A stretch of DNA of 64,000 nucleotides, taken from Acidobacteriota bacterium. GTDB lineage: Bacteria; Acidobacteriota; Thermoanaerobaculia; Multivoradales; Multivoraceae. Of this stretch, positions 16,504 through 20,553 are shown piece by piece; position 1 is the first letter of the stretch; every line of letters starts with the position of its first letter. The translations under genes were made by a program, and so were the position numbers. Under the pieces are notes generated by a model. That model saw only the letters and a program-made list of their open reading frames with translations, was not told where the DNA came from and did no database searches. Location of the stretch: positions 310,001-374,000 of the forward strand of contig JAJCXN010000051.1 of the NCBI GenBank assembly GCA_029263415.1. The letters are read 5' to 3'.

Positions 16504-19044
16504 ATGAGCGAAGAACAAACCACGCCCCACTCTTCGATCGAGCCGGTTGAGCTCGAAGAGGAGATGCGCCGTAGCTATCTCGACTATGCGATGAGCGTCA
16601 TCGTTGGGCGCGCCCTGCCCGACGTCCGCGACGGACTCAAACCGGTCCATCGCCGTGTCCTCTATGGCATGTGGGAATCCGGCAATCTCGCCAACCGCGC
16701 GTACAAGAAATCGGCCCGTATTGTCGGTGACGTCATGGGTAAGTACCACCCGCACGGCGACAGCGCTATCTACGACACGGTCGTGCGCATGGCGCAAGAC
16801 TTCTCCTTGCGCTATCCGCTGGTTGACGGCCAAGGTAACTTTGGCTCGGTCGACGGCGACAACCCAGCGGCCATGCGCTACACCGAAGTCCGCATGACCC
16901 GCCTCGCCCACGAACTGCTGCGCGAAGACATCGACAAAGAAACCGTCGACTGGCTGCCCAACTACGACGGTTCAGAACTCGAGCCGACGGTCTTGCCCGC
17001 TCGATTTCCTAACCTTTTAGTCAACGGTTCAACAGGCATCGCCGTGGGTATGGCGACCAACATCCCGCCTCACAACCTGAGCGAAGTGATCGACGCGCTC
17101 AAACTAATGATCGACAATCCGGCGGTCACCCTCGCCGAGCTGATGGAAGTGCTGCCCGGCCCCGATTTCCCGACCGGCGCCACCATCCACGGCAACGCAG
17201 GCATTCACTCCGGATACGCCACCGGCCGCGGTTCAGTCCAAGTGCGCGCAAAAACCGAAGTTGAAGACCGCAAGGGCGACCGACAGGCGGTCATCGTCAC
17301 CGAGATCCCGTACCAGGTCAACAAGGCGCGGCTTATCGAACGCATTGCCGAGCTGGTGCGCGAGAAGAAGATTGAAGGCATCACCGACCTGCGTGACGAG
17401 TCGGATCGAGACGGTATGCGCATCGTCATCGAACTGCGTCGCGGCGAGATCGCCGAAGTCCTCATCAATCAGCTCTACAAGATGACGCAGATGCAGACCA
17501 CCTTCGGCATGAACATGCTGGCGATCGTCGACAATCAGCCGAAGCTCTTGGCACTGCCTGAGATCCTGCGTCACTTCTTGGATCATCGTCGCACGATCAT
17601 CATCCGACGCTCCCGCTTTGACCTGCGCAAGGCCGAAGAACGCGCCCACATTCTCGAGGGCTTGCTCAAAGCGCTCGACCTAATCGACGAGATCATCACG
17701 ACCATTCGTGCGTCGGCGTCTCCACCTGCCGCGAAGCAGAACTTGGTCGATCAGTTCGGGTTCTCCGACCCGCAGGCCCAGGCCATTCTCGACATGCGCC
17801 TGCAACGCCTGACCGGTCTCGAGCGCGACAAGCTCCTTGCCGAGTTCGAAGAACTCATGGCGCTGATCGAACGGCTGCGTTCTTTGTTGTCGTCCGATTC
17901 GTTGTTGCTCGAAGAGATCCGAGCCGAGCTCGAGGAGATCCAAGAGAGCTACGGCGACGACCGCCGCACCAACATTGTCGAATCCACAGGCGACCTGAGC
18001 GTCGAGGACTTGATCGCGGATGAGGACATGGTGGTCACGGTCACTCGATCGGGCTACGTCAAGCGCACAGCGCTGTCTGAGTATCGAGCGCAAGGCCGTG
18101 GCGGTAAGGGTCGCCGTGGCATGGTCACGAAAGATGAAGATTTCGTCGAGCGCTTGTTCGTCGCGTCGGCGCACAGTTACATCTTGGTGATCACCAAGAA
18201 GGGCAACCTGCACTGGCTCAAGGTCCACCAGGTTCCAGAGCTCGGGCCGGCCTCACGAGGCAAAGCGGTGATCAATCTGTTGCGTCTCGGAGATGGCGAC
18301 GAACTCGCGGCGGTGGTCTCAGTCAAGGAGTTTCCCGAGGACCGGTTCTTGATGTTCGCTACGGTGGGCGGCACCATCAAGAAGACCAGCCTTGCGGCTT
18401 ACTCACGTCCGCGACCGTCAGGCATTCGCGCAATCAAGATCGACGATGACGACGAGCTGTTGTCGGTGCGTGTCGCAGAGCCAGAGCAAGACGTTTTCTT
18501 GGCCACCCGGCGGGGCTACTCGGTGCGCTTCCCCGAGTCCGACGCACGGCCGATGGGCCGCGTGGCTCGAGGCGTGCGCGGGATCAGGCTGCGCAGCGGC
18601 GATCGCGCCGTTTCCATGGAAGTCCTCGATCGGGATGGCGACCTGCTGACCGTTGCAGAGAATGGTTATGGCAAGCGCACCGCCTTAGAGGAGTACCGGC
18701 GTCAAGGCCGCGGCGGCATGGGTATCATCAACCTCAAGGTTTCCGACAAGACCGGCGCCGTCATCGGCGTGCGCCAGGTGTCCGAGGAACAAGGCGTGAT
18801 GCTGATCACTCAAGCCGGCAAAATCATTCGCATCAATGCTGCTGACGTCTCGCGCATCGGCCGGTCCACCCAGGGCGTCCGGGTGATGGATCTCGGTGAG
18901 GGCGACGGGCTGGTGGCAATGGCCAAGATTGAGGAGGCCGACGAGATAGACGAGGCCGAGAACGAGGGTGCCGTCGCAGACGGCGTTGTTGACAAGGAAG
19001 CTGAGGGCGGCACAGCGTCGGCTCAAACGAACGAGGAGGAGTAG
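16504..19044 (+). CDS. gyrA: DNA gyrase subunit A
   Basis: DNA breakage-reunion subunit of gyrase, 846 aa. The winged-helix and tower region begins [20 protein letters not shown]. The quinolone-resistance region [17 protein letters not shown] keeps the Ser and Asp of the sensitive type. The catalytic tyrosine is Tyr126 in [10 protein letters not shown]. The C-terminal beta-pinwheel contains a GyrA-box-like [11 protein letters not shown], which distinguishes it from ParC. The last ~35 residues are an acidic tail. Directly after gyrB (3-bp gap). Confidence 0.97.
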
Positions 19045-19174
19045 GCTACCGATGAGCAGGAGTCACAGCGCACCGGTGCCTCAAAGCGGCCCCGTGCGCC
19101 GGGGTTTCGGCGCGCCCCGGTTCGCCGTGCGAACAAGGCCTGCTGTGACCCCCAGCTCGGTGAGCCGCTAAACC

Positions 19175-19768
19175 GTGCGCCCCAACGACCCGCGCCCGAC
19201 GGGCGAGCAACTCGAGCAACTCGAGCATGTCGACATCGCCCACACCTTGGCTCCGGTTTACGCGGAGGATCTGAAAGGGAACAAGGTCCGCTTTGGAACC
19301 CTCTGGGAAGAACGTCCTGCGGTGCTGGTCTTCCTGCGGCACTTTGGCTGAATTTTCTGCAGGGAACAGGTCGCGCAGTTGCGCAACTTCACTAGCAGAA
19401 TTCGCGAGCACGGCGCCGACCTGGTTCTGATTGGCAACGGCAGTACGGTGGAGGGTTCGCGCTTCCTCGAAGACACCGGTACCAAGCTCAGGCTTCTGGT
19501 AGATCCAGGGCTCGAGTGCTATCGGGCTGCGTGCTTAGAGCGTAGCCTTCTGGCCCCGCTCTCGCCGCAAGGCTGGGTACGCAGCGTTGGCTCGTTCTTG
19601 CGCGGGCACCGAGCCAGCCGCGTCTCAGGCGATGCATACCAGCTGGGCGGAATGTTCGTCATCACACCTGAGCAGCGCACCGAGTACGCGTTTGTTAACA
19701 ACAACGTGTATGAGCAGGCACCCATCGAGGCGGCCATCGACACCCTGAGAAGGCTCGGTCGCGAATAG
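19175..19768 (+). CDS. Peroxiredoxin-like (AhpC-TSA_2/PRXL2 type) protein, probable selenoprotein with UGA-encoded Sec59
   Basis: Read through the in-frame TGA at 19349-19351, this frame gives a 197-residue thioredoxin-fold protein of the AhpC-TSA_2/PRXL2 kind. Upstream of the TGA it encodes GNKVRFGTLWEERPAVLVFL then RHFG; downstream IFCREQVAQLRNFTSRI, VLIGNGS, LLVDPGLECYRA, and the family-typical QLGGMFVITPEQRTEYAFVN. Family members have FLRHFGCxxCRE, so the TGA replaces the first Cys of the CxxC, giving UxxC (Sec59, Cys62). No other stop interrupts the frame. GTG 19175 is the only sensible start after the preceding TAA at 19169. Known UxxC peroxiredoxin-like selenoproteins make this reading likely. 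Alternatives: a sequencing error (TGC or TGT to TGA) or a recent nonsense mutation. Confidence 0.75.
19349..19380 (+). promoter_or_regulatory. Candidate bacterial SECIS element directly after the UGA
   Basis: Seventeen bases after the TGA is GGTC (19369-19372), framed by the complementary tetramers CTGC (19357-19360) and GCAG (19375-19378). In Escherichia coli fdhF the SelB-binding GGUC apical loop lies 18 bases after its UGA, so the spacing agrees within one base. The stem here is weak and its inner part does not pair well, so the structure needs folding and covariation support. Confidence 0.45.
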
Positions 19769-19896: not shown

Positions 19897-20553
19897 GTGC
19901 AGTTCTTCTTAGATACCGCAGACATCGATGAGATTCGCCAGGGCCTAGATTGGGGCGTGGTGGACGGAGTCACCACCAACCCAAGCCTGATCGCCAAACA
20001 AGGCAAGCCCTACCTGCCGACGGTCAAGGAAATCGCTGAGCTGTGCCCCGGACCGGTGAGCGGCGAAGTGTTGGCAACAGACGTTGAAGGCATGCTCGAG
20101 CAGGGGCGCCGCCTGGCTGGTCTGGCCGACAACGTAGTGGTCAAGATTCCGCTGCTCCCTGCCGGGCTCCAAGCGGTCAGGACGCTGACCGAAGAGGGCA
20201 TCAAGACCAACGTTACCTTGTGCTTTTCAGCCAACCAGGCGCTGGTCGCTGCCAAGGCGGGAGCAACGTACATCTCGCCGTTCGTTGGCCGCCTCGATGA
20301 CGTTGGTCAAGACGGCATGGAGTTGATCGAGGACATCGTCGAGATCTACCGCAACTACCTGTTCGAAACCGAGGTCTTGGTGGCCTCTGTGCGCCATCCC
20401 ATGCATGTGCACCAGTCAGCCATCATCGGCGCGGACGTGGTCACGCTGCCGCTCAAGGCGCTCTCGCAGCTCTATCGACATCAGCTCACCGACATCGGCC
20501 TGGCCAACTTCCTGGCGGACTGGGAAACGACCGGCAAGACCTTCGACGACTAG
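19897..20553 (+). CDS. Transaldolase (TalC / fructose-6-phosphate aldolase type)
   Basis: Short transaldolase-family enzyme, 218 aa, of the non-oxidative pentose phosphate pathway or fructose-6-phosphate aldolase type. It starts at GTG with [19 protein letters not shown] and has [13 protein letters not shown], the Schiff-base Lys83 in [32 protein letters not shown] and [18 protein letters not shown]. Length fits the small bacterial class. It lies 128 bp after the selenoprotein gene and may have its own promoter. Whether it is a transaldolase or an aldolase cannot be told here. Confidence 0.93.

Follow-up and report, generated by a model that had tools for sequence, protein, structure and literature searches.

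The described proteins closest to the gene analyzed here are SelL and the SelL-related redox proteins (NF040769), and the SelL motif is UxxU, with two selenocysteine (Sec) residues. SelL appears among the selenoprotein families found in both prokaryotes and eukaryotes in PMC2398784. An AhpC/TSA family selenoprotein with a UxxS motif (pfam13911/cd02970) is listed in PMC9312934 and PMC13188914, and a Prx-like thiol:disulfide oxidoreductase with UxxC or UxxU motifs (PF00578) in PMC1088965, PMC1794560, and PMC13188914; the original prediction for this gene had stated that UxxC peroxiredoxin-like selenoproteins are known in bacteria, and the first two of these sources (PMC1088965, PMC1794560) bear this out. 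Table 1 of the 2026 inventory of 119 selenoprotein families (PMC13188914) holds no entry for NF040769 or for a UxxC form of PF13911/cd02970, and a literature search covering the titles and abstract beginnings of open-licence papers returned no description of a UxxC AhpC-TSA_2 form. The protein described below is of a recognized kind, and its UxxC AhpC-TSA_2 form is little catalogued.

The gene lies in a 64,000-nucleotide stretch of DNA that we analyzed as a whole (the window). It is flanked by gyrB-gyrA upstream and a transaldolase-type gene downstream, and the features discussed in the text are as follows.

16504..19044, + strand: gyrA, upstream neighbor (context only)
19175..19768, + strand: predicted selenoprotein gene, 197 aa with Sec59, UxxC, SelL-related/PRXL2 (AhpC-TSA_2); from frame, profiles, and alignment
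19349..19351, + strand: in-frame TGA at residue 59, first position of UxxC, predicted to be read as selenocysteine; from homologue codons and alignment
19370..19376, + strand: 5' arm of the predicted SECIS hairpin; from alignment, covariation, and folding
19377..19380, + strand: predicted apical loop of the SECIS (AGUU), 25 nt 3' of the UGA
19381..19387, + strand: 3' arm of the predicted SECIS hairpin; from alignment and covariation
19897..20553, + strand: transaldolase/fructose-6-phosphate aldolase family gene, downstream neighbor (context only)

The frame runs for 197 codons from GTG 19175 to the TAG at 19766-19768 and contains exactly one internal stop, the TGA at 19349-19351 (codon 59); translation thus reconfirmed that a single TGA occupies the position of the first Cys of the CxxC motif. 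In the read-through protein the context of this codon is FLRHFG-U-IFCREQ, with Cys62 of the UxxC motif encoded by TGC 19358-19360. Since a TAA is in frame at 19169-19171, the frame opens just 5' of GTG 19175, which is likely to be the start codon. Codon-position composition is gene-like on either side of the TGA, with G+C at positions 1/2/3 of 0.76/0.38/0.76 before it and 0.63/0.47/0.73 after it.

With Cys in place of Sec, the read-through protein matched AhpC-TSA_2 (PF13911) at 51.8 bits (gathering cut-off 27) in the part that follows the TGA (residues 68-175), and AhpC-TSA at 32.1 bits (cut-off 26) over residues 30-117, spanning the TGA. These profile matches, together with an unbroken alignment, agree with the claim that both sides of the TGA are one AhpC-TSA_2/PRXL2-type protein, for which SelL-related/PRXL2 is the better family name. 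Against the NCBIfam model NF040769 (SelL-related redox protein) the window protein scored 113.7 bits, below the curated cut-off of 120, so that it ranks as a close relative of this family without being filed in it; every one of the 26 sequences in alignment A2 matched NF040769 at E <= 1e-5. The 26 aligned sequences all share R55, H56, G58, F61, C62, G89, G144, Q156, and G159, and the placement of these residues on both sides of residue 59 indicates constraint on either flank of the UGA.

An AlphaFold model of the window protein (pLDDT 91.6, pTM 0.87) has a thioredoxin-like fold with a predicted helix at residues 60-70, directly after residue 59, which places the UxxC motif at the start of the helix. 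The top structural match in the PDB was human prostamide/prostaglandin F synthase (9usa, a mutant at C44 and C47; TM 0.87 by target length), and the only PDB sequence matches at E <= 1 were 9us9 and 9usa, the wild type and mutant of this same enzyme (PRXL2B). Its FGCxxC aligned with the FGUxxC of the window protein; it differs in having Cys for Sec, in its 20-22% identity, and in its animal lipid substrates. The window protein is a thioredoxin-fold redox protein of the SelL-related, PRXL2/AhpC-TSA_2 kind, with a UxxC site.

Compared with the described selenoproteins, the window protein belongs by profile to the same family as the SelL-related proteins and carries Sec at the same motif, whereas it differs from SelL sensu stricto in having one Sec (UxxC), the second position being Cys62. 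Like the UxxS selenoprotein, which the 2022 list assigns to pfam13911 (AhpC-TSA_2), it has Sec in the first motif position; the UxxS form has Ser where the window protein has a possible resolving Cys. The PF00578 entry describes a Prx-like protein with a thioredoxin-like UxxC, as in the window, and may or may not cover the window's family; a second Prx-like family found in relatives, with the motif RGxWUPFC, is presumably the better match to it. The classical Sec-peroxiredoxin (TxxU) has the broad AhpC-TSA fold in common with the window protein, in which a TxxC/TxxU peroxidatic motif is absent, the motif being RHFGUIFC with a thioredoxin-like UxxC.

Alternation of UGA and Cys at column 59 had been proposed as a check on the selenocysteine reading, and it was seen in homologues. 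In a first set of 60 genomes (the window's own included), the protein was matched in 17, and the codon at column 59 was readable in 20 of the 24 loci taken (4 gave no alignment), with TGA in 18 and TGC in 2. The 18 TGA loci comprise 14 close homologues and 4 members of the separate Prx-like family with RGxWUPFC. Of 102 named loci found elsewhere, 80 were kept, and 77 of these 80 have TGC or TGT at column 59; the 3 with TGA are all from Chloroflexota. Searching 72 genomes of the window's order (own included) with a profile gave 19 matches, spread over 18 genomes. All 16 strong matches (>=205 bits, own included) have TGA at column 59, while the 3 weak matches divide into 2 with Cys and 1 with TGA. 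A draw of 396 genomes from the phylum yielded matches in 38, and the codon was read in at most 30 of the 41 matches; these added further UxxC genes (L137-L140, L142-L149, and others) as well as Cys genes (L141, L154, L155, L157, and L158).

Some of the loci recovered were of other types. Three genes from the window's phylum (L150, L151, and L152) have two in-frame TGA codons and are therefore UxxU, SelL-like forms, with an AGTT loop at the same register as described below. The RGxWUPFC family (L031, L032, L034, and L038) has its TGA within that motif and a strong hairpin of its own; with the window protein as query, no match of this type was found in the window's genome. Lastly, L174 is a GyrA/ParC-like frame (37% identity) in a Polyangia bin whose internal TGA is perhaps an error or the mark of a broken gene. 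GyrA of the window itself has 58% identity to that of a Myxococcota bin and 56% to that of an Acidobacteria bin, values that do not settle the phylum.

We then compared the nucleotides 3' of the TGA. Over 17 distinct genes, columns 22-28 after the TGA pair with columns 33-39 around an AGTT loop. Pairing holds in 99.2% of the 119 cells, 10 cells are changed on both sides, and the covariation score is 0.422 (shuffled mean 0.181); none of these three values was reached in 500 shuffles, and when the pairing partners were slid by 1-3 columns the covariation was at most 0.064. Three pairs have a change on both sides, a number that 73 of 500 shuffles reached, and there are 8 further pair types, which 50 of 500 reached. 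The three Chloroflexota genes account for nine of the 10 double-changed cells, and in them much of the stem has been replaced around the same AGTT loop; because these genes are related to one another, the double changes are nearer one large event than nine, and independent events are few. RNAalifold recovered the same helix unprompted.

This hairpin distinguished UGA genes from Cys genes. Of 37 UGA genes, 27 combine an AG loop at this register with 6 or more of the 7 pairs; none of 84 Cys genes does, and 3 of these have 6 or 7 pairs with other loops. The remaining 10 UGA genes do not form the hairpin at precisely this register, and several of them fold hairpins elsewhere. Left out of this comparison and of the tree described below were L031, L032, and L034-L039 (other Prx-like family or no clear match) and 15 duplicates (L120-L132, L134, and L136), while the UxxU genes L150 and L152, which the motif pattern missed, stand outside the 37 UGA genes and were read separately. 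Measured against random synonymous codons, hairpin energies had z-scores of -1.2 to -3.3 in the 17 UGA genes (-2.3 in the window), and most of the 44 Cys genes lay nearer zero, with L048 (-2.9) and L062 (-2.8) as low as UGA genes; this test took 44 of the 79 Cys loci then known and assumed a third-position G+C of 0.85, compared with about 0.75 in the window gene.

The window's own hairpin forms 6 of the 7 pairs, with one C.A mismatch (19372 with 19385); the stem has 4 bp adjoining the loop, then the C.A, then 3 more pairs. Taken alone it is not exceptional, and 11% of random synonymous versions of the window stretch reached 6 pairs. Its loop of 4 nt with G at position 2 followed by U, its spacing of 25 nt, and its energy of -8.9 kcal/mol fall within the published bSECIS limits (loop of 3-9 nt, stem of 4-16 bp, a G at loop position 1 or 2, spacing of 16-37 nt, and energy <= -7.5 kcal/mol; PMC13188914). 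However, our own version of a generic bSECIS model accepts 632 (37%) of the window's 1702 TGA triplets (both strands, all frames), so a generic match alone proves nothing. The AGTT loop at that register with at least 6 of 7 stem pairs, in contrast, was found at only this TGA of the 1702. Because the bSECIS limits are loose, we place weight instead on the conserved register and loop, on the covariation, and on the contrast with Cys genes. An Rfam search around the gene and over the whole window returned no SECIS or other relevant family.

A hairpin check after the UGA, as put forward in the original prediction, thus found a covarying SECIS-like element, at a different place from the one suggested there. 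The prediction had pointed to a GGTC 17 nt after the TGA; this tetranucleotide is indeed present at 19369-19372, but it forms the foot and part of the 5' arm of the hairpin rather than its loop. We therefore rejected GGTC as the marker of the SECIS: it lies in a stem arm and is shared by only 3 of 16 aligned relatives, the others having AGTC, CGTC, TGTC, TGTT, CATC, or GCTG at this position. The loop with the conserved GU is AGUU (AGTT 19377-19380), some 7 nt beyond the position of the GU in E. coli fdhF.

Genes for the Sec machinery, namely selA, selB, selC (tRNA-Sec), and selD, were all found in the window's genome (6.89 Mb in 60 contigs), each on a separate contig. SelB matched at 329 bits on C44 (cut-off 242), SelA at 458 bits on C4 (cut-off 268), and SelD at 249 bits summed over one frame on C23 (cut-off 125), while tRNA-Sec scored 71.1 bits on C28 (gathering 47), where ARAGORN called a tRNA-SeC with anticodon tca. 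The SelD sequence is the C-terminal part of an 829-aa ORF (L011:220-2709) whose N-terminal part resembles an NAD(P)H dehydrogenase, and its catalytic position looks to be Cys (ACGGCAAK). Ndh-SelD fusions are mentioned in PMC2398784.

SelB was above the cut-off in 55 of 60 relatives irrespective of whether the gene was present, so the presence of SelB does not discriminate. In the 23 other genomes of the window's family (G001-G023), all 23 match SelB above the cut-off and none has a close copy of the gene; since these genomes keep SelB without it, other selenoproteins presumably sustain their use of Sec. In the window, TGA is the terminating stop of 12 of 37 long ORFs, which gives no sign of a global code change.

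From the computed frame, homology, machinery genes, UGA/Cys pairing, hairpin, and fold, we infer that the gene very probably encodes a 197-residue thioredoxin-fold redox protein with a Sec-x-x-Cys active site, in which UGA 59 is decoded as Sec via SelB and the AGUU hairpin. The machinery genes, the UGA/Cys pairing, and the covarying hairpin all favor the selenocysteine translation originally proposed.

The rival that survives best is a pseudogene, in which a formerly Cys-containing PRXL2-type gene was broken by a nonsense mutation. Its 197 codons hold no second stop, however, and the frame aligns with relatives without a break; moreover, the only stop lies at a catalytic Cys, is a codon that the genome is equipped to decode, and is followed by a covarying hairpin. 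The same TGA also occurs in 15 other genomes of the order, which are all those with a close homologue. Although the long branch of the window gene (1.53 changes per column), its solitary occurrence in the family, and the mismatch in its hairpin would suit a decaying gene, we consider this reading very unlikely. It appears slightly less likely still that the UGA specifies Cys or Trp, whether through a suppressor or allo-tRNA or because of a global code change. Cys-carrying tRNAs with anticodon UCA have been described in some bacteria, which counts in its favor, whereas TGA ends long ORFs in the window, the genome has a canonical tRNA-Sec with selA, selB, and selD, and a SelB-type hairpin would have no evident use absent Sec insertion. 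A sequencing or assembly error that turned TGC or TGT into TGA is the least likely of all, since the same codon is found in 15 other assemblies of the order and in the three Chloroflexota records, and the hairpin is present here while Cys genes lack it.

If UGA 59 is decoded as Sec, it would be read by tRNA-Sec(UCA) delivered by SelB bound to the AGUU-loop hairpin that starts 18 nt 3' of the UGA, with Sec made by SelA using selenophosphate from SelD. Sec59 would then sit at the N-terminus of the active-site helix. Homology with PRXL2-type enzymes, together with the model, suggests that Sec59 may act as the nucleophile on a peroxide or disulfide, with Cys62 as the resolving residue, and the resulting Sec59-Cys62 selenenylsulfide would afterwards be reduced by a thioredoxin-like partner. 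The genes on either side are housekeeping genes with no evident link to the selenoprotein gene. When we compared 18 regions of relatives (3 to 13 kb, several ending at contig ends) with 13 kb of the window (ORFs >=90 aa, blastp 1e-8), only one group of neighbors was present in at least 3 loci once the gene itself and ORFs overlapping it on either strand were excluded, a large protein in 3 loci that is receptor-like by eye. As the neighborhood has no informative shared genes, neither reductant nor substrate can be inferred from context.

These genes may make up a SelL/PRXL2 selenoprotein subfamily that is so far uncatalogued. Of its members read here from one phylum, most would be UxxC, a few UxxU, and some CxxC, and a single SECIS type (~7 bp of stem closing an AGUU loop, with 25 nt between it and the UGA) would be common to most of its UGA genes and preserved from that phylum to Chloroflexota despite replacement of the stem sequence; we put the chances of this at about even. 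Standard annotation tends to lose such genes, and would here probably call a fragment or pseudogene. The three motif forms of one enzyme type within one phylum offer a natural series on the retention and loss of Sec, and the AGUU hairpin provides a concrete search model for more members.

We also built a quick tree from 91 domains, masking columns 59 and 62; several of its branches, the window's included, are long, and it kept 8 of the loci L080-L119, the UGA gene L092 being among those omitted. The state of residue 59 changes at least 8 times on the tree as drawn, of which well-supported branches force only 2. Sec and Cys have thus been exchanged more than once, in a number and direction that are unsure. 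The long branch of the window gene and its solitary occurrence in the family suggest acquisition or loss, with a small chance that the window copy is drifting. L141, a Cys homologue on a 3.1 kb contig of the same phylum, scores among the UGA genes (about 200 bits) without having the hairpin, and in the tree it grouped at weak support with another Cys gene, L051.
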